From Nocardioides sp. BP30 (GTDB taxonomy: Bacteria; Actinomycetota; Actinomycetes; Propionibacteriales; Nocardioidaceae), in NCBI RefSeq assembly GCF_029873215.1, contig NZ_CP123620.1, positions 372,001 to 436,000 of the forward strand: 64,000 nucleotides of DNA. The letters run 5' to 3'. The notes beneath the pieces were generated by a model. The model saw only the letters and a list, made by a program, of their open reading frames with translations, was not told the origin of the DNA and ran no database searches. Position numbers and translations under genes: made by a program. Below, one piece after another: positions 41,615 through 51,476 of the stretch (positions within the stretch are counted from its first letter, which is position 1; every line of letters starts with the position of its first letter).

Positions 41615-42302
41615 CGGTCTCCACGATCCGTACGACGAGGTCGGTGGTGCCGACCCGCACCACGGCGCCGTCGTCGAGCAACGAGCTGCTCATCCGTTGC
41701 CCGTTGACCAGCATGCCGTTGGTGGAGCCGAGGTCGTGCACCTCGACCTGGCGGTCGTTCTGCCGGAACTCGGCGTGCCGGCGGCTGACGCCGGGGTCGT
41801 TGATCCGCAGGTCGGCCTCCGTGCCGCGGCCGACCACCAGGGAGCCGAGGTGCAGCGGGTGCCGGGAGCCGTTGACCTCGATGAAGGCTGTCGCGCGACT
41901 CACCTGGGTGGCGGTGGCGTCGCTGCTGACGCTCGCCTCGGCCTTGCTGCGGATCCGGAAGCGGCCGGTGGTCAGGTCCGCCGCCTCCTCGAAGTCGATG
42001 TGGATCGGGCCTGGGAAGACGTAGGCCTGGGCCTCGGCATGCTTGTGCAGCTGCTCGCTGAGCTCGCTGGCCAGCGCCGAGTCGTAGGGGGAGAGCCGCG
42101 CCATGTCGCTGGGCGCCAGCTCGACGTGGAAGGAGTTGGGCACCAGGCGCCGCTCGCGGCTGAGGATCTGGGCGTTGTTGTCGCACTCGCGCTGCAGCGC
42201 GGCAGCGATCTCGACCGGCTGCACGGCGCTGCGGAACGCCCGCGCGAAGGCACCGGAGATGACGGATTCGAGGCGCTGTTCGAACCGCTGCAAGCCGCCC
42301 AT
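41607..42302 (-). CDS. fhaA: FhaA-like DUF3662 and FHA domain protein
   Basis: The 231-residue protein starts at ATG 42302 after GGCAGGAG. DUF3662 (about 1-115) begins MGGLQRFEQRLESVISGAFARAF with VQPVEIAAALQRECDNNA. The C-terminal FHA domain (about 145-225) has VVGRGTEADLRINDPGVSRRHAEF and DLGSTNGMLVNGQ. In Mycobacterium FhaA binds phosphorylated MviN and PknB. It is the first gene of the seven-gene kinase operon (42302 down to 33625), whose promoter lies in 42303-42440. Confidence 0.94.
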   Translation of the reverse strand: MGGLQRFEQRLESVISGAFARAFRSAVQPVEIAAALQRECDNNAQILSRERRLVPNSFHVELAPSDMARLSPYDSALASELSEQLHKHAEAQAYVFPGPIHIDFEEAADLTTGRFRIRSKAEASVSSDATATQVSRATAFIEVNGSRHPLHLGSLVVGRGTEADLRINDPGVSRRHAEFRQNDRQVEVHDLGSTNGMLVNGQRMSSSLLDDGAVVRVGTTDLVVRIVETDV

Positions 42303-42425
42303 GCGCACTCCTGCCACTCGTCCTTCGCCCGTGCTTGTGCACGCGCCACTGCCCCGACAGGGCCGCCGGGTCCGCTCGATCGTATCGGTGCGGCGGTTGT
42401 TGGGCCCCTTCACGCGCCGCCGGTT

Positions 42426-42454
42426 TTGGTCTGATGGTGGGGGTGAGATAGCCT
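42426..42454 (+). promoter_or_regulatory. Promoter of tRNA-Leu
   Basis: TTGGTC (-35, 42426-42431) and TAGCCT (-10, 42449-42454) are separated by exactly 17 bp. The tRNA begins 15 bp after the -10. Confidence 0.65.
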
Positions 42455-42468
42455 TCCGGTGCATCAGC

Positions 42469-42552
42469 GCGCGAGTGGCGGAATAGGCAGACGCGCACGG
42501 TTCAGGTCCGTGTGCCCGAAAGGGCGTGGGGGTTCAACTCCCCCCTCGCGCA
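42469..42552 (+). tRNA. tRNA-Leu (CAG anticodon)
   Basis: The 84-nt class II tRNA has acceptor arms GCGCGAG/CTCGCGC, anticodon loop around TTCAGGT, a long variable arm (TGCCCGAAAGGGCG) and T-arm GGGGG-TTCAACT-CCCCC. CCA is not encoded. It marks the left edge of the accessory island. Confidence 0.96.
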
Positions 42553-42560
42553 CAACAGGC

Positions 42561-42594
42561 CGGTTTAGGTATTGCCGGCCGAGCGGTTTAGGTA
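42561..42594. repeat. 11-bp direct repeat after tRNA-Leu
   Basis: CGGTTTAGGTA occurs at 42561-42571 and 42584-42594, 23 bp (about two helical turns) apart. A short GCCGG/CCGGC inverted pair lies between. It could be an integrase arm-type site or a regulator site at the island edge; no integrase gene is seen. Confidence 0.35.
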
Positions 42595-42599
42595 GTAGG

Positions 42600-42640
42600 A
42601 AGGGGCCCCTGGCCTGCGGAAACGTAGCCAGGGGTCCCTT
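42600..42640 (+). terminator. Terminator hairpin after tRNA-Leu
   Basis: AAGGGGCCCCTGGC (42600-42613) pairs with 42627-42640 with a single wobble and a 13-nt loop, followed by CTTGG. Confidence 0.65.
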
Positions 42641-42720
42641 CTTGGTTGCGGTGTTGAGTTGCGGGCCATGTCGGCGCGGATGTGGACCCGTGACCGCCTC
42701 GACCACCGGAGGACTCACCC

Positions 42721-42888
42721 GTGACGCCCGACCTGCCCCGTTACCTCGAGACGCGGGTCCAATGCGCGTTTGAGCGCGGTCGCGTACCGACTGCCAGTGA
42801 GGTGCGGGGGATCATGGCGGAGCTTGGTCTGAGCGGGAGTCGGTGGCGGACCTCGCCGATTAGGTGGCCAGCGCGAGCAGCGCGCTAA
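42721..42888 (+). CDS. Small hypothetical protein
   Basis: A 55-codon frame from GTG 42721 reads VTPDLPRYLETRVQCAFERG and ends in an Arg/Trp-rich tail. I recognise no family. It lies alone between tRNA-Leu and the NDT-like gene, and its coding status is uncertain. The rest of 42641-43063 shows no other plausible gene. Confidence 0.25.
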   Translation: MTPDLPRYLETRVQCAFERGRVPTASEVRGIMAELGLSGSRWRTSPIRWPARAAR

Positions 42889-43063
42889 CGCCGCCTCCGC
42901 GCGAAGCCCACACAGCGCCCGAGGTCGTCCCTCCACCAGGACCCGGCGTTCCGGTAGCTAGGTGTGATGCCCAGCTAGGTGCCGCTCCCGGACGCCGTTC
43001 TATCGGACTGTCGGACCTCTGGAGTAGCGTCGACTATGTAGAGCGAGAGAACGGTGGCGGTTC

Positions 43064-43672
43064 GTGACAAGTGGAAGACCGCAAGGTCTCGGCGTCCCGG
43101 TGACGGTGTCGGGGAGTTTTCACCGGCACCTCTCCCAGATTGCGGCCGACGTCCGCGAACTTAACCAGCTCGGCGCGGTCGTCTTGTCGCCCGCAGACCC
43201 CCGCGTCGTTGACGCGTTCGGCGACTTCCTGTTTGTCGCGAGCGATCGCCAACGGACCGTCAAGCGCCTACAAGACCGCCACTTGGCCGCGATTGAACGA
43301 TCGGCGCTTCTCTGGCTGGTCGCACCCGACGGTTACGTCGGCCCGTCGGCGGCCCTGGAGATCGGCGTCGCGGTCGCCACCGGCGTCCCCGTGTTCGCCC
43401 GAAGCCCGATCAACGATCTGACCTTGCGTCAATACGTGACTCCATGCCCATCGATCACTGCCGCGCTCGGCAGTGGCGCCGCGGGCCTCGACACTCGGCC
43501 CAGTAGTGCGCCTCCACTGGTGCTCGAGCCCCTAGAGGGCGGTCGACGGGCTCACGATCTCCTTGAACTCATCAGCTCTCGACTCAGCCGTACGAACAAC
43601 CAAAAGCAGGAGCGTGATCAGGTAGCAACTGCGGCGGCACGCCAGTTGAAGGACGCGCTCCGGCATCTCTGA
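43064..43672 (+). CDS. Nucleoside 2-deoxyribosyltransferase-like protein
   Basis: The 202-residue protein has one Rossmann-like domain. VPVTVSGSFHRHLSQIAADV is strand 1 and helix 1. LGAVVLSPADPRVVDAFGDF follows, then DRHLAAIERSALLWLVAPDGYVGPSAALEIG. The Glu99 in ALEIG matches the catalytic Glu of the nucleoside deoxyribosyltransferase (NDT) and deoxynucleotide N-hydrolase superfamily. The C-terminal 60 residues are helical. The same layout recurs in the fusion protein at 46812-47639. A base-release or base-exchange activity on deoxynucleosides or deoxynucleotides is inferred. It is convergent with the kinase gene. Confidence 0.7.
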   Translation: MTSGRPQGLGVPVTVSGSFHRHLSQIAADVRELNQLGAVVLSPADPRVVDAFGDFLFVASDRQRTVKRLQDRHLAAIERSALLWLVAPDGYVGPSAALEIGVAVATGVPVFARSPINDLTLRQYVTPCPSITAALGSGAAGLDTRPSSAPPLVLEPLEGGRRAHDLLELISSRLSRTNNQKQERDQVATAAARQLKDALRHL

Positions 43673-43705
43673 GCGACCTGCGGACATCCGCCGCAATGTC
43701 GACCT

Positions 43706-44230
43706 TCAGGTAAGGCGCGCGATGATCTCGTTCGCCAGTTCCTCGACTTCCAGGTCATCGGTAGCGATCGACGCGTGCGCCAACGCACCGAGAGCAACAA
43801 CCTCGATCTCGGTTCGATGCTGCATCGCCGCGTCGAACGGGACGGCTCGCTTGAGCGGGTCGGTCGCGGCCGCTGCGGCATACCGTGCCCGGCGCGTCTC
43901 TTCGTGGGCAGTCAGGTAGACCAGCCGTGCATCGGCGAAGTACCCGAGCAACGGCTCGGTTTGACGCACGGTACGCAGACTGTCGACAACGAAGTCGTCG
44001 TTGGTCAGATCTGTTCGCTGCTCGAGGTAGTGGAGGAGCCATCGACCTGACGTGCGCTGGTCGAGGGCGGCTCCTTCTCGCTGCATGAGCGCGCGACCGG
44101 CCGATGCAAGACCGAGAACCTCCAGGAGCGCGGAGCGAACGGTGACGAGACGAGCGGCGCCGGCCTGCGTCAAGGCGGCGGCAACCGAGGTCTTCCCGAC
44201 GGCGATCGGACCGGAGAGGAGGATGATCAT
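43706..44230 (-). CDS. Small P-loop nucleotide kinase-like ATPase
   Basis: The 174-residue protein begins MIILLSGPIAVGKTSVAAALTQ, a Walker A motif (GPIAVGKT). Downstream are a DFVVDSLRTV strand (about 85-94), which carries the Walker B-like Asp, and LVYLTAHEETRRARY, which resembles the LID region of nucleotide kinases. C-terminal HRTEIEVVALGALA and ATDDLEVEELANEIIARL complete the fold. It resembles dephospho- or deoxynucleotide kinases; the substrate is unknown. It follows the AAA+ gene on the same strand after about 100 bp, so it probably shares its transcript. Confidence 0.65.
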   Translation of the reverse strand: MIILLSGPIAVGKTSVAAALTQAGAARLVTVRSALLEVLGLASAGRALMQREGAALDQRTSGRWLLHYLEQRTDLTNDDFVVDSLRTVRQTEPLLGYFADARLVYLTAHEETRRARYAAAAATDPLKRAVPFDAAMQHRTEIEVVALGALAHASIATDDLEVEELANEIIARLT

Positions 44231-44329
44231 AGTTGGCCGGCCGCGGGCGTGTGCGACCCATTCTTCACTCCGGACCTAGCCGATCGCCGGACCGGGGCCG
44301 AGGGACAGGGTCGGGTGCCGCGGTAGTGG

Positions 44330-46840
44330 TCAGCTCTCTGGTGGCGCGGTCTCATTGATCTCATCCGCAAGGTCCTTCGCCGACATCGAAGCCGCGGTGG
44401 CGATCCGCAAGTAGCCGTGCGGCTGCAGTTCAAGTCCCAGTGATGTGGCCCAAGCTTCGGGGTTATCGGGTGCGCCCATCGAGATCCATGTCTCGCCGCC
44501 CAGCTTGTAGAGAGCGTGATCGTCATTCGGCGTTGAACCGACGGAAGCCAGAATCTCGGCCACCTTCTCGTCCGTTAGCCCATCGATCCTCGCCCACATC
44601 ACCATCCGCGCGTCGCGGCGTTCGAATTGGAACAGTTCGCTTACGTTAGGAAGCGGCACGCCTTCCTCGTCGTCCTCTGCCCAGGTCGTGCCGTCGTGCC
44701 AGTCCAGACGGCGAAGTTCGCGTGCGATCGGTTGGAGCGCGGCACGCAGCCGACCGGCGTCGACGGCGGCTCCCTGTCCGTCCGACTTCAGCTCACGCCC
44801 GATGGCACCGTACTGGTCGTAACGGACGAGTGCGAGCCATCCGATGCCCGTCGCGACGGGCGGCAGAGTCTTCGGGTCAAGGAGGGCGTTCCGGATTGTG
44901 TCCTCATCCACCAAGAGGGTGTAGCCCTGGTCGGCCAGCCACTGCCGCTTGCTCGCGTATCCGGGCGGAAGGATCATCCGCGCTGCGTCGAACCGCTGAC
45001 TGCGGACGATGGCGCTGTCGACGCGTTTAATGTTGTTCGTGTTCACGAAGAACAGGACCTTGCGGGCGTCCCATAGCTTCGCAAGGCGCGGAAGCATCGT
45101 CGTGGTGAAGAAGCGTTCGATGGTTTCCGCTTCGTGGGTTCGCTGCTGGATCAGCTCATCGATCTCATCGAGGAGAATGACGCAGCGGTCGAGCTCCATC
45201 GCCTGACGAAAGATCACGTCAGCTTGTGCGCTGACATAGTCGACCCCCCGATCGAGGAACTGGGCTGGCGTGATCTCAATGAAGTCCCAGCCGATCGCAC
45301 CGGCCACAGCTTCGACCAGCTTTGTCTTTCCCGTTCCGGGTGGCCCGAAGAGCATTGCTGACCGAGCCTGGGTCTCTTCGAGAACGCGCTCATCAGGATC
45401 AAGCCAAAACCGCGCGACGTTGTCCGCCTTCCTCGTCGCCATCTGTACCGGATGCACGAACGCGGTCGATAGGAATCCGCCCGCCGTTCCATGGCCTAGA
45501 TCCCAAGACGAGCCCCGGTCGCGAAGCGTGTGGAGGTTCGCGGTTGGCGTTCGCGCACCCAGAGCCGTGCGAGCGGCCTGAGAGCTCCAACTGCCAATGA
45601 GTCGCCGAAGTCCCTGTGCGAACCTGTATACGGAAGCGGTCGCCCAACTCTCCGGACTGTTGCGGTGGGGGTGATGGCCTGAGGACCACCCACGTCCGTC
45701 GGTACCCAAGAGCTGGCCCGTCGCCTCGGCATAGTCGAGCGCGGCCACCAGCTCGGCGCTGTGGCTCTTGAGCGCCTCGGCGAGCGCGGCGGCGGCTGCT
45801 TCGCCGACCTCCCGGCTGGTGGCGAGCGAGACGAGTTCGGCGAGTGTCTCAAACACGTACGCGTACGCGTTCCCGGCGTTCTTGTAGTGGAAGAGTGGTG
45901 CGCCCGTTGCCCACGTTCCACGATCTTGCTGTTCGAAGAACGCGCGCAGGCCGGCGATCATGAGTTCGTGTTCGACCGAGACTGAGTTCGACAGGTTCCG
46001 CGGATCACCGAAACGGACAAGGCCGCAAAGGGCCCAAATCAACTGTTGCGGATCAGCGAAGCGGGATCGGTTGAAGTGGAAGGCCACTTGTGAAGCGAGT
46101 GCCTCTTGGAGCCAGTCCTCAGCCGCGGCGAGTGAGCGCGGAGACGTCGGTGCGTCCTCCTCGGTTGAAAGGAGGTTTGCGTCGGACGCAAGCTTCGCGG
46201 CCAGTAGACCCCAGTAGGTCAGGAACGCGTTCGCCGGATATTGCCGCGGCCCGGCCTTCTCGCCGAGCCCCAAATTTCCGATCGGCGATGCGGTCGCCTC
46301 TCTGAGCCCGAAACTTCCGCCGTCATCGAACCGAGACTGCCAGGCCTGCTCGATGAGCGCACGGAGGTTGGTTCGCCGTGCGTCGTCCCAGGTAGCCGAG
46401 TCGACGTCCAGTAGCCGCATCGCGCTTCCGAGCGTACGCACCCGGCAATACACCCATGCGGCGTCGTCGCTTTGCCAACCCTCTTGGGTGGTTAAGGCGT
46501 GGGAAATGAACGACGACAGCACCTCTGACGCGTGCTCGTTCGTCCACACCTCGCCAGTCGTAAGGTCCCACGCGGGTGCTTCGAGCAGTGACTCGATACA
46601 GGTAACCGTGCTTGTCAGCCGGTGAACACCGGCCGTCCGTGTGCGGTCCGACTTAGGGCCCGACTCCTGCTTGTCAGCGTCAGTCCGGAAGAAGACATCA
46701 TCGACTTCGTCCCAGAAGTGTCCGATGCTCGCACGCTGCGCCCGGAGGAACTCAAGGACACGGACACGGGCGGCAGCAAAGTCTTCGAGTTGGGCCACAG
46801 CCCCATTGTGATCAAGCGACCGATGGAGCGGCTGCAGCAC
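44330..46840 (-). CDS. AAA+ ATPase with large alpha-helical N-terminal half
   Basis: The 836-residue protein has a classical AAA+ module at about 490-640. Walker A is GPPGTGKT (499-506), Walker B CVILLDEIDEL (553-563) and sensor 1 FFVNTNN (598-604). An arginine-rich RSQRFDAARM follows as the probable finger. The N-terminal 480 residues are helical and contain GGSFG- and SWATAS-type segments that recall alpha/alpha-toroid repeats; this is by eye. The C-terminal 190 residues have no family I can name. Start is GTG 46840, overlapping the NDT-MazG stop by 29 bp, so it is translationally coupled. It may sense a trigger or remodel partner proteins. Confidence 0.75.
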   Translation of the reverse strand: MLQPLHRSLDHNGAVAQLEDFAAARVRVLEFLRAQRASIGHFWDEVDDVFFRTDADKQESGPKSDRTRTAGVHRLTSTVTCIESLLEAPAWDLTTGEVWTNEHASEVLSSFISHALTTQEGWQSDDAAWVYCRVRTLGSAMRLLDVDSATWDDARRTNLRALIEQAWQSRFDDGGSFGLREATASPIGNLGLGEKAGPRQYPANAFLTYWGLLAAKLASDANLLSTEEDAPTSPRSLAAAEDWLQEALASQVAFHFNRSRFADPQQLIWALCGLVRFGDPRNLSNSVSVEHELMIAGLRAFFEQQDRGTWATGAPLFHYKNAGNAYAYVFETLAELVSLATSREVGEAAAAALAEALKSHSAELVAALDYAEATGQLLGTDGRGWSSGHHPHRNSPESWATASVYRFAQGLRRLIGSWSSQAARTALGARTPTANLHTLRDRGSSWDLGHGTAGGFLSTAFVHPVQMATRKADNVARFWLDPDERVLEETQARSAMLFGPPGTGKTKLVEAVAGAIGWDFIEITPAQFLDRGVDYVSAQADVIFRQAMELDRCVILLDEIDELIQQRTHEAETIERFFTTTMLPRLAKLWDARKVLFFVNTNNIKRVDSAIVRSQRFDAARMILPPGYASKRQWLADQGYTLLVDEDTIRNALLDPKTLPPVATGIGWLALVRYDQYGAIGRELKSDGQGAAVDAGRLRAALQPIARELRRLDWHDGTTWAEDDEEGVPLPNVSELFQFERRDARMVMWARIDGLTDEKVAEILASVGSTPNDDHALYKLGGETWISMGAPDNPEAWATSLGLELQPHGYLRIATAASMSAKDLADEINETAPPES

Positions 46841-47639
46841 GCGCCGCGTTCACAGCCTCCTTGCGCGTAACGGCCTCCGCGAGGTCAACGCCGAGACTGC
46901 TCGAAAGGTGGACCAGGTACAGCTGGAGGTCTGCGAGTTCTTCAGCGACGTCTTGTCCATCCCAGTCATGGTTGCGCGAGAGTCCGATGGACTTACGGAC
47001 CGCACGTGCCAGTTCACCCATCTCCTCGGTCATGAGCAGCAGGGTGTCTTGGACCGTTTCGCTGTCCCAACCACGACGGGCGGCGGCACGTTCGTAGTAG
47101 TGCTGAAGACCGCGCAATCCGTTGCCGGGCGCTTTCAGTTCTTGGGTGAGAGCAACCTCGGTCGGATCAGAGACGACTGTCACCCACGCCTCGTAGGTCT
47201 CCTCGGTCGGCGGGTTGTCAGAAAAGATCGGAATGCCGAGGGCCTTCGCGTGTCCGAGCTCGAACATCGCGCTAGCTCCGATGTATCCCTCGGGCGCGTG
47301 TAGCCAGACGAAGTCCGCCTCGACAAGCGCAGAGAGATGCTGCTCCTCAATTTCAGTTGCGGAGGCGTTCAGCTCGTGCCGCAGCCGGACGAACTCTGCG
47401 TCTGGGTCAACGAAGTCGATCCCGAGCGGGGAAAGCACCTCGTAGGTGTCCATCAGGATGTTGAACGTCTCAGCGAGCCGGACACGGTCGCGGCGGAACG
47501 AGCCGCAAAGTACGACGCGTAGCGGTCGGTCGGCCTCAACGCTTGCACCCTGAGGCGGGGCGGTATTTGCGGGCGACGATCCTCCGTCGGACTGCGGTGC
47601 GGGCGCCCGCACCACGCGACTCACGCTAGCTCCGCTCAC
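46812..47639 (-). CDS. NDT-like domain fused to MazG nucleotide pyrophosphohydrolase
   Basis: The 275-residue protein, from GTG 47639, has a low-complexity N-terminus to about 35. An NDT-like domain (about 38-165) follows with PLRVVLCGSFRRDRVRLAE and EADFVWLHAPEGYIGASAMFELGHAKALGIPIF; the putative catalytic Glu is Glu127. A MazG all-helical domain (about 178-265) carries the metal motif TEEMGEL (Glu205, Glu206, Glu209) and AEELADLQ (Glu233, Glu234, Asp237). MazG hydrolyses dNTPs to dNMP and pyrophosphate, and the NDT part could then release the base. Both active sites appear intact. It is the first gene of the minus-strand operon. Confidence 0.8.
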   Translation of the reverse strand: MSGASVSRVVRAPAPQSDGGSSPANTAPPQGASVEADRPLRVVLCGSFRRDRVRLAETFNILMDTYEVLSPLGIDFVDPDAEFVRLRHELNASATEIEEQHLSALVEADFVWLHAPEGYIGASAMFELGHAKALGIPIFSDNPPTEETYEAWVTVVSDPTEVALTQELKAPGNGLRGLQHYYERAAARRGWDSETVQDTLLLMTEEMGELARAVRKSIGLSRNHDWDGQDVAEELADLQLYLVHLSSSLGVDLAEAVTRKEAVNAARAAAAPSVA

Positions 47640-47743
47640 GTAAGTAAGTTTAACACGTGCGTGCCTTTCCGTGTCGCGCCACGCGGCACTTCGGCCAGCC
47701 GCCGGCAGCGAGGCCGACGCTTGCTGTCGTCGCTTACTTACGT
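47638..47743. promoter_or_regulatory. Divergent promoter with paired 11-bp inverted sites
   Basis: ACGTAAGTAAG at 47638-47648 and CTTACTTACGT at 47733-47743 are exact reverse complements, placed symmetrically at the two ends of the gap between the NDT-MazG start and the HTH gene start. One site touches each start codon region. This is what autoregulation of both transcripts by the HTH protein would look like. Confidence 0.6.
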
Positions 47744-47755
47744 CACCATGGGACC

Positions 47756-48310
47756 GTGGCACGAGCGGTGACTTCGACCGCGCTGACGCTGCATGAGGCG
47801 GCCGAGCGCTTGGCTGTCACGCCGCAAAGGATCAGCCAACTGTTAAAGCAGGGCGTGCTGACAGGGCCGTCCTACGGCCCCGGCCGTGCGCCGGCCAACG
47901 TGCCACGGGTGTCTCTCGAATCAGTGGCAGAGTACGAGCGACAAAGACCGGCCAGGACGTCCGGTCGCGCGATCCCAAACCGGACGATCCTCGAGTCCGA
48001 GGTGAAGGCTTTACGCGCGGACGTGGACCGACTGACGCGTGGGTCAGAGGCACGAGAGCGAGCTGCGCGACAGGCTGCGATGGAGCTCAAGGCCGGCGCC
48101 GACAGCATCTACGAACGGCTAACTGCTCGTATCGAGGAGAACCGGTCCCTTGCGGCACAGCTGGCGGCCGCTCGGGCCGAGCTGGAGACCGCACGTGGGG
48201 ATCTCTCGTTCGCCGCCGCACGGATCGATGCTCTGGAGTTGCGCGACCAGTCGCTTGGGAACGCACTTACTTCACTTCTCGTACCGGACTCTCCGGCCGA
48301 CATGGGCTGA
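47756..48310 (+). CDS. MerR-type HTH and coiled-coil DNA-binding protein
   Basis: The 184-residue protein starts at GTG 47756 (GTG 47768 is possible). LTLHEAAERLAVTPQRISQLLKQGVLTGP (about 9-37) is a MerR/excisionase-type helix-turn-helix. A long coiled coil (about 80-170) follows, with many Glu, Arg and Ala and ending GNALTSLLV. Such proteins (HTH plus coiled coil) include KfrA-like and regulatory types. It faces the NDT-MazG operon across the inverted sites and is probably its repressor or activator. A longer frame upstream has no homology. Confidence 0.7.
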   Translation: MARAVTSTALTLHEAAERLAVTPQRISQLLKQGVLTGPSYGPGRAPANVPRVSLESVAEYERQRPARTSGRAIPNRTILESEVKALRADVDRLTRGSEARERAARQAAMELKAGADSIYERLTARIEENRSLAAQLAAARAELETARGDLSFAAARIDALELRDQSLGNALTSLLVPDSPADMG

Positions 48311-48400
48311 CCACGATGGCGGAGTGGTCTTGGCGCGTCCGACGGGAGTCGGCTGCGTGGTTCGACCACCACGACGAGCCGGCGTGGGACTGATCGGGCT

Positions 48401-49261
48401 TCAGACTTGCGATTGGCCGCGCCGAAGGGTGCGCAGTGCTCGTCGGCGAACGTAAGCGATGTCGTCCCCGTATCTTGTGTGCCAGCATTCGAGGTGCTGC
48501 GTGACCCACGCTGGCTGGCTCTTCGATGCGTCGTTGAGCCAGTTCGCGACCGAATCCTGTACGTAGCGGTTTCGATCGTTGATTAGGCGATCAAGGATCG
48601 GTAGCGCCAGGCCAGGCTCGTCCTTGAGGAGCGTTATATGTGTGCTCCAGACTCCGCGTGGACGGATGACCTCGGATGCGAATCGCCGCACGCGCGGGTC
48701 CGGGTCCTCGGCGAATCTTTCGAGCTCTGCAATCGCAACATCGAGGTGCGCCGCGACAATCGGACGAAGAGAGAGCCATGCCCACTCACGCACGGCGAAA
48801 TGTGGGTCCGCCGCGAAGCCCTGTCCGAGTGCGAGTTGCGTCGCAATGGGGCGCGAGGTCATCGGGATGCTGAACGCGACCCAACCACGCACCGTGTCGC
48901 TCGACCATCGCGCCGCCTGCCCGTAGACGTCCTCGCCGTACTCGGCCCATAGGATCGCCGCGCCCGCCCGCATCCGGCCCAAGAAGTTCGGTATCCGCAT
49001 CTCCTGCGCGCGGTGGGCCTGCGACGGAACCGTGGATGCGAGTAACGCGCCCATGTCCATCGCCATCTGTTCGATGTGGTTCGCGCTCGCGCCCCCGGCC
49101 TCAAGCTCACGAAGTGCGTCGCTGGTTACGTCGGCGAGACGTCTTGCCCCGCGTCGCTCGGCCTGGATGAAGGCCGGCTCGAAACTGGTAACCGCGTGCA
49201 CTCGATCATGAGGCGCGGTGCGGGGCTCCGGGGGTTCGCTCGGCACGGGAGACGGTTGCAC
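48401..49261 (-). CDS. AlkD-like DNA alkylation repair HEAT-repeat protein
   Basis: The 286-residue protein is all-helical. Segments such as FAVREWAWLSLRPIVAAHL, DPDPRVRRFASEVIRPRGVW and LINDRNRYVQDSVANWLNDASK match the HEAT-like repeats of the AlkC/AlkD DNA glycosylase family (PF08713). AlkD removes 3-methyladenine and 7-methylguanine without base flipping. Whether the catalytic Asp/Trp set is kept cannot be decided by eye. The start is GTG 49261 and the first 20 residues are Pro-rich. It is convergent with the HTH gene after 90 bp. Confidence 0.75.
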   Translation of the reverse strand: MQPSPVPSEPPEPRTAPHDRVHAVTSFEPAFIQAERRGARRLADVTSDALRELEAGGASANHIEQMAMDMGALLASTVPSQAHRAQEMRIPNFLGRMRAGAAILWAEYGEDVYGQAARWSSDTVRGWVAFSIPMTSRPIATQLALGQGFAADPHFAVREWAWLSLRPIVAAHLDVAIAELERFAEDPDPRVRRFASEVIRPRGVWSTHITLLKDEPGLALPILDRLINDRNRYVQDSVANWLNDASKSQPAWVTQHLECWHTRYGDDIAYVRRRALRTLRRGQSQV

Positions 49262-49504
49262 GCCAGCAAGTGTGACTCAGCGGGGGGTCCCGCCAGGTCT
49301 GCGGCACGGATCGAGCGACGCCTCAGGCAGGGCCCAGGACCCTTGATGCACGCAACCCCTCGACATCCTGAGGCTCCATTACTAACCATCGCTCTTCCGA
49401 TTTCGGCCTCCGATGTGTATGACCTTCAGCGCGTTGTGAACGCGCTCCGGCGCACCAGAAAGTTGAAGTGGAGCCAGCCTTCCTCGGTGCGGAACTGGGT
49501 CACA

Positions 49505-49777
49505 TCAGCAGCCGGTCGTCGTGAAGTTGGTGTACTTCAACCCGTCCTGAGCCAGGCGGTCGGTGTTCGGGGTCCGGATCAGCCCTCCGAACGGCTCGAT
49601 CCAGCCGAACCCGATGTCGTCGATGATGACGTACGAGACGTTCGGGGCGTCGGCCGGCGCGGTCGGTGGCATCGGGAAGGCCGGCTCGGAGTCCTCCCAC
49701 GTGCGTCCGATCTCGCCAGGGAACCGCTCGCCCTCGAGGTAGGTCCTCATCGAGCCCTGAGCCTCCGGCATCGTCAT
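49505..49777 (-). pseudogene. Truncated arylsulfatase, N-terminal fragment
   Basis: From ATG 49777 the minus strand encodes an arylsulfatase start: FPGEIGRTWEDSEPAFP, then PNVSYVIIDDIGFGWIEPFG and TPNTDRLAQDGLKYTNFTTTGC. DDIGFG gives the calcium-binding Asp pair. The frame stops exactly where the family continues with the C-x-P-x-R modification motif. About 400 residues are missing, so no active enzyme is possible. The break marks the right edge of the island, and the missing part is not in the window. The 49262-49504 gap holds only unassigned sequence. Confidence 0.75.
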
Positions 49778-50072
49778 CACCCCGTCGTGTGTGCGCCGGT
49801 CCCGCGCCGGCGGCCACAGCAGCAACACACCGACCGACCCCACCTCGGGTCACCCGAAGCGGGCGAGACCGGGCGGGCGCCCCCGGCCCTCCCGTCCGGC
49901 ATCACGACAGGCCGAGCGTTCGACGATGCTCCATCTGTTTTTCCGATGCACTGGAGCGATAACAGGTATTGGCATCGACGGAGTCGCGGGACGCATAGTT
50001 CCAGCACCCCGTTCGGGGGAGGACAACGGTGTCCTGCAGACGCCCACTCCGATTCTCTCGCTAGGAGAACCG
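49778..50072. promoter_or_regulatory. Leader and promoter of the amine-catabolic operon
   Basis: This 295-bp stretch upstream of the permease has no gene. TAGGAGAA ends 6 bp before the ATG at 50073 and is the likely ribosome binding site. AT-richer sequence at about 49930-49975 is the likely promoter. No clear operator symmetry was found. Confidence 0.45.
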
Positions 50073-51476
50073 ATGTCCCAGTCCACAGAGTCAACCCTCG
50101 CGATCGAGCAGCGCACGATCGACCACATTCCCGTGCACGAGCGGCACGGCAAGGCACGTGACCTGTTCACCATCTGGTTCGGGTCGAACATCATGCTGCT
50201 CACGGTCGCGACCGGGGTGGTCGCCACCGCCGTCTACGGCCTGAACGTCTGGGCGGCGATCATCGCCCTGGTCCTCGGCAACGCCGTCGGAGCGGTCGTG
50301 ATGGCCCTGCACGCGGCGCAGGGACCGCAGATGGGCGTGCCGCAGATGCTGCAGACGCGGGCCCAGTTCGGCTCCTACGGCAGCCTGCTGATCGTCGTAC
50401 TGGTGATCTTCATGTACGTCGGCTTCTTCGCCTCCAACACCGTGCTCGGCGGCCAGGCGATCGCCTCCCTGTTCGGGATCGACGAGACCGTCGCGATCAT
50501 CGCCATCGGTGCGATCAGCGCGCTCGGTGCGGTGGTCGGCTACCGCCTCATCCATGCCCTCGGCGGGTTGATGAGCCTGGTCGCCGGCATCGTCATGGTG
50601 CTCGCGTTCGTCTGGGTGCTCTTCGTCCACCACCTCCCCGCGGGCACCATGCACGCCGGCGGCTTCACCGTCTCGGGCTTCATGGGCACCGTCTCACTCG
50701 CGGCGCTGTGGCAGATCGCCTACGCGCCGTACGTCTCGGACTACACCCGCTACATGCCGCGCGACACAGGGGTGCGGCCGGCGTTCTGGGCCACCTACTG
50801 GGGCTGCACGCTCGGCTCGCTCTTCCCGATGATCCTCGGCGGCCTGGTCGGTGCCGCGCTGCCGGACGCCGACACCGTGACCGGCCTGCACGACCTGAGT
50901 GGCGGCATCGGCGGGCTGGTGGTCGGCGTCTTCGGCATCGGCATCGCGATCACCAACTCGATGAACCTCTACTGCGGGGCCCTCTCGACGATCACCGTCG
51001 GACAGACGCTGGCGCCGCACTGGAAGCCGAAGGCCGGCACCCGCGCCGTCATCTCGATCGCGCTGTGCGCCGTCGCCCTGGTGATGGGCATCGCCGGCAA
51101 GGACAACTTCCTGGTGAACTTCACGAACTTCATGCTCCTGCTGCTGTGCGTGCTGGTGCCGTGGACGGCGGTCAACCTGGTCGACTACTACGCGATCAAG
51201 CACGGCGTCTACGACATCGAGTCGCTCTTCGAGGCCGACGGCGGCCGCTACGGGCGGGTCAACGTCATCGCCGTCAGCTGCTACGTGCTGGGCATCGCGA
51301 TCCAGCTGCCCTTCATCGACACCACGATCTGGGAGGGACCGATCGCGAAGTCACTCGGCGGGGTCGACATCTCCTGGATCGTCGGGCTGCTGGTCATCTG
51401 CCCGCTCTACTACGTGCTGATGAAGCGGTTCCCGCGCCTGTCCGGCGTACGCGTCGAGGCCGTCGAGGTCGCCTGA
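50073..51476 (+). CDS. NCS1 family purine/cytosine-type permease
   Basis: The 467-residue protein has 12 predicted membrane helices. It starts at ATG 50073 with TAGGAGAA upstream. HGKARDLFTIWFGSNIMLLTVATG is the NCS1 (CodB-like) signature, and ALWQIAYAPYVSDYTRYMPRDT is the second conserved region. It imports purines, pyrimidines, thiamine, allantoin or similar N-heterocycles with a cation. It is the first gene of a nine-gene operon with gaps of 16 bp or less, so it should import a substrate handled by the following enzymes. Confidence 0.93.
   Translation: MSQSTESTLAIEQRTIDHIPVHERHGKARDLFTIWFGSNIMLLTVATGVVATAVYGLNVWAAIIALVLGNAVGAVVMALHAAQGPQMGVPQMLQTRAQFGSYGSLLIVVLVIFMYVGFFASNTVLGGQAIASLFGIDETVAIIAIGAISALGAVVGYRLIHALGGLMSLVAGIVMVLAFVWVLFVHHLPAGTMHAGGFTVSGFMGTVSLAALWQIAYAPYVSDYTRYMPRDTGVRPAFWATYWGCTLGSLFPMILGGLVGAALPDADTVTGLHDLSGGIGGLVVGVFGIGIAITNSMNLYCGALSTITVGQTLAPHWKPKAGTRAVISIALCAVALVMGIAGKDNFLVNFTNFMLLLLCVLVPWTAVNLVDYYAIKHGVYDIESLFEADGGRYGRVNVIAVSCYVLGIAIQLPFIDTTIWEGPIAKSLGGVDISWIVGLLVICPLYYVLMKRFPRLSGVRVEAVEVA

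Follow-up and report, generated by a model that had tools for sequence, protein, structure and literature searches.

A six-gene cassette beside tRNA-Leu(CAG)

The region of interest lies within a 64,000-nucleotide stretch of Nocardioides sp. BP30 DNA (the window), next to a tRNA-Leu(CAG) gene (42469..42553, plus strand; ARAGORN). Open reading frames and a Pfam scan of seven of them recovered all of the genes named in the preliminary description, and confirmed a cassette of six. Reading away from the tRNA, these are NDT1, a stand-alone NDT/DNPH1-like protein (43064..43672, plus strand; PF05014 E 0.068, below cutoff); a P-loop kinase of the nucleotide-kinase type, KIN (43706..44230, minus strand; PF13238 AAA_18, 2.6e-7); an AAA+ ATPase (44330..46840, minus strand; PF00004, 2.4e-23 at residues 496–619); an NDT-MazG fusion (46812..47639, minus strand; PF03819, 25.9 bits, cutoff 22); a divergent HTH and coiled-coil regulator (about 47765..48310, start uncertain, plus strand; weak HTH matches below cutoff); and a HEAT-repeat protein predicted to be an AlkC-like DNA glycosylase (48401..49261, minus strand; PF08713, 6.3e-7). 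The proposed lower-GC island (42641..49504) holds up in its composition—GC content is 0.63–0.66 over 43–49 kb, and elsewhere in the window most 1-kb bins lie at 0.67–0.75, with a few dipping to 0.655–0.666—while the cassette proper is narrower, at 43064–49261. At the right edge, outside the cassette, lie the remains of a sulfatase gene (49505..49843, minus strand; PF00884 E 0.0017, below cutoff, covering profile positions 1–48 of 301).

Nocardioides rubriscoriae and Mycobacterium sp. 141 carry all six genes too, identically ordered and adjoining the same tRNA. The cassette is rare: three of 215 genomes of the genus carry it, its own genome included. The core pair, NDT-MazG and AAA+, is adjacent in 11 of the 12 testable NDT-MazG loci of other genomes, and is also found away from tRNA-Leu(CAG), its two genes co-varying. 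Whether these genes keep company elsewhere was a question put by the preliminary description, and they do. DNA homology to the two closest compared sites stops at the 3' end of the tRNA, at positions 42553 (L090) and 42557 (L091). Neither of two marks of an integrative mobile island was found: the seven scanned ORFs include no integrase, and no second copy of the tRNA 3' end in direct orientation (attachment repeat) turned up; the tRNA boundary alone was seen. Mobile genes lie near some copies of the cassette.

The paired regulator sites described earlier are real. The sequence CTTACTTACGT occurs twice in the 64 kb at ≤1 mismatch, against an expectation of 0.05; one copy (47638..47648, minus strand) overlaps the GTG start of NDT-MazG, and the second (47733..47743, plus strand) lies upstream of the HTH gene. 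Site searches and cross-genome comparison reveal an operator, CTTACTTACRT, with cassette-only sites in the three cassette genomes and none in three other genomes. The regulator itself is 44% and 38% identical to those of loci L005 and L006. At the NDT-MazG start, the operator directly follows a TANNNT-type −10, suggesting a leaderless promoter.

The predicted nucleotide enzymes and the AlkC-like protein

The MazG half of NDT-MazG, of the all-alpha NTP pyrophosphohydrolase type, finds its best PDB profile matches in mouse RS21-C6 (E 4.9e-12) and DCTPP1 (5e-12). Its MazG motifs are intact, as first reported: the metal site ExxE...ExxD (E206, E209, E234, D237) is kept in 34 of 34 family rows. Compared with human DCTPP1 (dCTP pyrophosphatase, RS21-C6), the MazG half keeps the metal Glu/Asp residues and the positions that we take to be Trp47 and Tyr102 in DCTPP1 numbering, but has a Tyr at the His38 position and is fused to a predicted N-glycosidase.

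The nearest profile to the NDT half is, weakly, DNPH1/Rcl. With human and rat DNPH1 (Rcl; 2'-deoxynucleoside 5'-phosphate N-hydrolase 1) it shares the nucleophile Glu (E127) and the general-acid Asp (D109), both present in all 34 family rows and placed against rat Rcl by a HMMER alignment. It differs in being fused to MazG, in lacking the active-site Tyr (the Y24 position holds Val in 32 rows, Thr in one and Ala in one), and in phosphate-site serines that align only in part: the first-loop Ser, presumably 5'-phosphate-binding, is Ser in 31 rows and Thr in three, while the other two are gapped or aligned with unlike residues. Because Tyr24 is absent, we class this half as one that works like DNPH1, and not as a DNPH1. 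The catalytic residues of NDT-MazG are conserved across homologues, a point on which the original proposal had been staked. Taken together, its sequence looks like that of a fused enzyme, predicted to convert (d)NTP to (d)NMP and then to base and sugar phosphate. NDT-MazG was not found in phage records, nor in IMG/VR (117 pattern stretches, none confirmed). A plasmid search gave one weak match, to the NDT half only; it was rejected as a cassette copy, the adjoining gene being annotated radA and not a cassette-type AAA+.

NDT1 shares 51% and 42% identity with its counterparts in the L005 and L006 cassettes, and related copies occur at L119 and L120 (type II loci, below). The catalytic Glu reported for both NDT-like proteins is indeed present in each; however, NDT1 of the window has Ala in place of the general-acid Asp, which three of four relatives retain. 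The kinase family is present in six of 13 loci carrying NDT-MazG and AAA+. As for the HEAT-repeat protein, the label 'AlkD-like' is to be replaced: its best PDB profile match is AlkC (5vi0, E 1.2e-22), to which it is closer than to AlkD. The signature RRxAxE...RPRxxW...LND, which we take to comprise the AlkC catalytic residues, is retained in four of four rows. An AlkC-like gene is also found at the N. dongkuii-type locus L092 and at L120.

The AAA+ ATPase and its relatives

The AAA+ protein probably begins at a GTG at 46798, 13 nt past the NDT-MazG stop, and carries a helical N-terminal domain of about 480 residues before the AAA core (predicted structure: pLDDT 88.0, pTM 0.89). Its motifs are those of a classical AAA+ ATPase, and the Walker A and B noted previously are conserved: in 32 rows, Walker A (except G504, at 90% or more), Walker B, the sensor-1 Asn and two Arg (Arg fingers) are invariant. 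Across 16 AAA+ rows of types I–IV the same motifs vary at two positions only: T503, kept in 90% or more, and G504, replaced by Ser in the type II proteins of L119 and L120.

These types are distinguished by their partners. Type I is paired with the NDT-MazG fusion; type II with NDT1, with or without an AlkC-like gene (L119/L120); type III with DUF4406 and a 450-residue protein; and type IV with HIT and MazG/PRA-PH, beside ThyX/DHFR. In the window cassette, parts of types I and II stand together. (For the 450-residue protein of type III, a pyruvate-phosphate-dikinase-like domain was considered, a label dropped for want of a Pfam match.) In eight of eight loci examined, an AAA+ protein with the helical N-terminal domain has an NDT-, MazG- or HIT-type neighbour, a count that leaves out L123, L124, L127, L134, L135 and L128–L130. 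None of these has a neighbour of any kind tested for; the N-terminal profile does not match the AAA+ proteins of the first five, and L128–L130 are, by eye, GNAT-AAA like L127.

The N-terminal-column profile matches six type II–IV AAA+ proteins at 1.6e-95 or better, those proteins being included in the profile. Leave-one-out profiles give 9.8e-27 for L118, 7.5e-56 for L121, 1.2e-13 for L122 and 3.5e-52 for L126, while a profile from type I rows alone gives about 1e-48 for L119 and L120, 2e-6 or better for L121, L122 and L126, and only 0.005 for L118. The AAA+ protein has matches in 24 phage records, of which the 12 listed cover the AAA core only, and in 327 plasmid records, where 12 of the 20 listed begin at residue 457 or later (again, the core only); the plasmid loci examined were H3, H4, H6, H7, H8, H9 and H13, followed by H44, H47, H48 and H53. 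Match H5 lies on another plasmid that has the gene set of H4. In a Foldseek/VIA structure search, matches were taken up by the AAA core rather than the helical domain.

The defence system IetAS consists of IetA and a protease, IetS. The likeness of IetA is confined to the AAA+ core, with PADLOC E values of 2e-11 (window protein) and 9e-23 (L118); the cassette protein differs in its long helical N-terminal domain and its nucleotide-enzyme partners, and no protease match was obtained in the seven scanned ORFs. We tentatively propose, at somewhat less than even odds, that the helical-N-terminal AAA+ proteins are an unrecognised modular family controlling nucleotide-destroying enzymes (types I–IV): a new class of nucleotide-level conflict system in which the motor is kept and the enzyme exchanged.

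Proposed nucleotide targeting and its alternatives

The best reading of the locus is nucleotide targeting under AAA+ control, strengthened because other AAA+ relatives pair with NDT, MazG and HIT enzymes. In full, and with a probability of about one half, the cassette would be a regulated nucleotide-destruction system. The DCTPP1-like half of NDT-MazG would cut (d)NTP to (d)NMP and PPi, and the DNPH1-like half would split the (d)NMP into free base and (deoxy)ribose 5-phosphate; plain re-phosphorylation would therefore no longer restore the nucleotide. The AAA+ protein, whose translation would directly follow that of NDT-MazG, may sense a trigger through its helical N-terminal domain, or remodel the enzyme, and so switch it on. 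The HTH protein would repress the operon via the private operators on the putative leaderless promoter, while the kinase, NDT1 and the AlkC-like glycosylase may widen this task to cover nucleosides and DNA bases. The cassette would most likely serve as an accessory system that guards against phage or mobile DNA, or that keeps out foreign or modified nucleotides.

Known nucleotide-depletion defences include dCTP deaminase and dGTPase. The cassette would likewise act on the nucleotide pool, but through other enzyme families, with two steps in a single chain and an AAA+ partner. The CMP hydrolases MilB and BlsM, which belong to antibiotic biosynthesis, are without the MazG fusion. Neither the NDT-MazG fusion nor its AAA+ pairing was found in the literature covered, which comprised titles and abstract openings of mainly open-access papers and no bioRxiv preprints.

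Could the cassette instead be a house-cleaning module with an accessory stress or self-resistance function, in which NDT-MazG and NDT1 clear the pool, and the AlkC-like protein clears DNA, of damaged, alkylated or antibiotic-type nucleotides? Its enzymes resemble the sanitisers and repair enzymes DNPH1, DCTPP1 and AlkC, a likeness that suits pool sanitation, and the AlkC-like gene accompanies the L092 and L120 loci too. According to the available text of PMC8626424, the AlkD-related glycosylase YtkR2 gives antibiotic self-resistance in Streptomyces. However, the cassette is rare and patchy, with mobile genes near some copies, and house-cleaning enzymes seldom come with an AAA+ partner and a regulator of their own; we regard this reading as possible, if rather doubtful. 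No biosynthetic cluster was noticed beside the cassette, although without a dedicated search.

The effector of Retron-Eco1 is NDT-like, and the NDT half might similarly cut NAD+ or make a nucleotide signal, with the MazG half limiting or hydrolysing the product and the AAA+ protein acting as sensor. Retrons with NDT-like effectors place an NDT-type protein in a conflict setting (PMC12548924), Retron-Eco1 is reported to form NAD+-hydrolysing filaments (a reference in PMC12548924), and NADase or ADP-ribosyl cyclase roles are discussed for the DrHyd superfamily (PMC9503650). The missing DNPH1 Tyr would agree with such chemistry, but a dCTP pyrophosphatase is the closest match of the MazG half, and the partners of the AAA+ relatives are varied nucleotide enzymes, MazG/PRA-PH and HIT among them; we consider this reading unlikely. 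The seven scanned ORFs gave no match to a retron reverse transcriptase, and 42300–50100 no Rfam match to a retron ncRNA at gathering, a weak test given that the tRNA likewise went unreported there. Finally, unrelated genes may gather by chance at a tRNA hot spot, and the genus shows great variation here: for 18 of the 19 genomes sampled, the first gene past the tRNA is without a counterpart within 8 kb of the other tRNAs. That six genes, their order and their operator are common to three genomes of two genera, and that the co-varying core pair is also met elsewhere than at this tRNA, makes such a gathering very improbable.

A scan of neighbours for defence families covered 16 loci (proteins of 90–900 aa; fha side of L005 and L006 excluded) and took in 106 of 116 eligible neighbours, plus 39 control proteins. 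Neighbours matched 59 PADLOC families, each by ≤2 of the 106; controls matched 47, each by ≤2 (the 25 shown being mainly PD-T4-6 and other kinase models), and thus at a rate no lower. One neighbour protein matches RmrA models (4.6e-132). Defence-island association is suggestive at single loci. A role in conflict with phage or mobile DNA would fit both the mobility and certain neighbours.

Bacterial immunity through nucleotide destruction is known from a few enzyme families. If the proposed reading is true, one chain unites two steps that are split in human cells between DCTPP1 and DNPH1, and this two-step enzyme would answer to an AAA+ motor and to a regulator with a cassette-only operator. 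The private switch, the small number of genes and the recurrent pairing open the idea to direct tests, and through the AAA+ family one may reach further nucleotide-level systems not named by the defence models used here. The presence of AAA+ relatives beside nucleotide enzymes suggests an unrecognised bacterial route for destroying foreign or damaged nucleotides.

The cassette and its tRNA-Leu(CAG) site

The cassette (43064–49261) consists of six intact genes flanked by tRNA-Leu(CAG) and a sulfatase gene fragment. It encodes (i) NDT1, a stand-alone NDT/DNPH1-like protein, (ii) a P-loop kinase, KIN, (iii) an AAA+ ATPase, (iv) an NDT-MazG fusion, (v) a divergent HTH/coiled-coil regulator, and (vi) a HEAT-repeat glycosylase (AlkC-like). 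GC content drops to 0.63–0.66 between 43 and 49 kb of the window, and NDT1 is the sole other match to NDT-MazG in the host genome (one contig, 4.28 Mb). The sulfatase fragment, which bounds the cassette region on the right (49505–49843), is a weak match covering profile positions 1–48 of 301.

The preliminary description presented this gene set as a candidate undescribed system, and it is indeed real, conserved and mostly unnamed. The window's proteins fall below every NCBIfam cutoff, their PADLOC matches are marginal or confined to the AAA+ core, and the anti-phage model NF042959 reaches 28 of 510 bits, again on the AAA+ core. No description of the set was found in the published literature searched.

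In all 19 sampled congeners, fhaA is followed by tRNA-Leu(CAG). In 18 of the 19 genomes, by our own gene calls, nothing within 8 kb of the other tRNAs corresponds to the first gene past this tRNA; in one genome (L106) that gene is an integrase. Homology to the two closest sites breaks off at the end of the tRNA or no more than 4 nt from it. A tRNA scan of ten loci besides the window placed tRNA-Leu(CAG) beside the full cassettes of Nocardioides rubriscoriae (L005) and Mycobacterium sp. 141 (L006), and a tRNA-Thr 83 nt beyond the AAA+ gene of L017; the other seven have no tRNA within 4 kb. Mobile genes lie close to the cassette in L092 and L014 (relaxase) and in L017 (integrase and resolvase). 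PADLOC-type neighbours are PDC-S19 (L006), E1-E2 (L005), PDC-M36A (L017) and HNH (L011), but a wider scan of neighbours against controls gave no clear enrichment, and L007, L119 and L120 have housekeeping-gene surroundings. The E1-E2 match (ubiquitin-like conjugation; L005:2024–3745) lies amid small uncharacterised genes. Neighbours of a kind common around the replication origin, some named by eye, were also seen: gyrB/gyrA before L007, tRNA-Ile/Ala near L092, and mnmE- and dnaA-like genes beside L119.

Co-occurrence of NDT-MazG and the AAA+ ATPase

Among the 80 of 145 NDT-MazG relatives kept from named genomes, 13 (L005–L017) match both halves of the fusion, and the other 67 about one half. 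The AAA+ gene directly follows NDT-MazG in 11 of these 13 loci, bearing out the co-occurrence that the preliminary description set as a check; L013 reaches a contig end and is unusable for this count, and L008 has no AAA+ gene beside NDT-MazG or elsewhere in its genome. The 11 loci come from Nocardioides, Mycobacterium, Acidimicrobiaceae, Dormiibacterota, Chloroflexi, five acidobacterial groups and Bipolaricaulota.

Adding the window and the locus of genome G029 (L004/L092) gives a second set of 13. KIN occupies third place in six of these (window, L092, L005, L006, L007 and, weakly, L010), with the records of L014 and L016 ending no further than 0.6 kb from the AAA+ gene. An AlkC-like gene is present in four (window, L005, L006 and L092, where another gene intervenes), and NDT1 and HTH occur as additional genes in L005 and L006 only among the other NDT-MazG loci. 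The intervening opposite-strand gene, between AlkC-like and NDT-MazG (L092:3765–5783), is transposase-like by eye and perhaps inserted into the cassette. Thymidylate-kinase-like proteins are encoded divergently from and adjoining NDT-MazG at L016:1824–2417, and ~4 kb past the AAA+ gene at L009:17151–17828; they are possible stand-ins for the window's kinase.

In the large protein database, judged by identical length of the longest contig, 47 of the best 120 of 208 AAA+ matches, the window's included, pair with one of the best 120 of 179 NDT-MazG matches, against 0.6 after 10% jitter. Pairwise distances of the two proteins across the 47 pairs correlate (r 0.63, shared host descent included; none of 2000 permutations exceeded 0.17). 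By the same criterion, 11 of 120 listed AlkC-like proteins pair with an NDT-MazG protein, and nine of them, including those of the window, L005 and L006, pair with an AAA+ protein as well.

Separate halves were also encountered. In Saccharibacteria, the NDT half stands alone in L018 and L019, and the MazG half in L021 and L022 (56–57% identical); the stretches examined at these four loci contain no match to the window's AAA+ protein. On a Miltoncostaea plasmid (L125:4610–6648), the gene for an NDT1-like protein lies immediately behind one annotated radA, which is a different ATPase.

A putative operator at the NDT-MazG start

Two copies of CTTACTTACGT lie between the HTH and NDT-MazG genes (0.05 expected per 64 kb), and similar sites occupy the same intergenic region in L005 and L006, where the regulator gene is present. 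In all three, one copy runs into the NDT-MazG start codon, directly after a TANNNT box located 7–9 nt upstream of the start (TAAACT in the window, TACACT in L005, TATACT in L006). This arrangement resembles a leaderless promoter on which a repressor would sit. Genome-wide, CTTACTTACRT occurs twice in the window's own genome (G000), twice in G618 and once in G733, always at the cassette; there are no matches in G029, whose cassette has no HTH gene, or in G628 and G602, where no AAA+ gene was found. As a control, the motif read backward gave one match in the same genomes, in G733.

Partners of the AAA+ family

Searching from the AAA+ protein and testing for its helical N-terminal domain yielded eight loci outside the window, of four types. 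Type I, with NDT-MazG, comprises G029 (L092) and G618, whose locus coincides with L005. In type II, from an acidobacterial phylum (L119 in G990, L120 in G1019), a shorter AAA+ protein adjoins an NDT1-like protein without MazG; L120 carries an AlkC-like gene two genes upstream. Type III comprises L118 (an actinobacterium) and two conjugative plasmids, L121 of Rhizobium beringeri and L126 of Sinorhizobium meliloti. All three encode a DUF4406-type protein, a family that groups with NDT-like folds, and a common uncharacterised 450-residue protein, the two being fused in L126. The gene order of L118 differs, with the pair on the opposite strand, and its DUF4406 kinship is based on similarity to L121 only, with no Pfam match. 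Type IV, on a Parabacteroides distasonis plasmid (L122:3433–8719), encodes, in this order, ThyX, the helical-domain AAA+ protein, HIT, PRA-PH/MazG and dihydrofolate reductase; the family member here sits within a thymidylate cluster.

The family is sparsely distributed. With the host genome counted each time, it turned up in 3 of 215 genomes from the genus, 2 of 149 from the family and 2 of 396 from the phylum, these two being the window and the type III locus; another draw of 246 genomes from the phylum gave 1. It was found in 3 of 297 genomes in the phylum of L012, centre genome counted, and in none besides the centre genome among 198 (class of L007) or 251 (phylum of L010). Since these searches scored 2–6 candidates per genome under strict thresholds, distant members may be missed.

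From this inventory of partners, all eight loci with the helical domain have a nucleotide-enzyme neighbour; eight more plasmid loci, whose AAA+ proteins are without the domain, have none. Within the domain, D263, W310, W385, S387, W399 and T401 are invariant across 16 rows spanning types I–IV. On the basis of homology, and for either immunity or sanitation, the cassette may act as the preliminary description proposed, degrading or sanitising dNTPs under AAA+ control.
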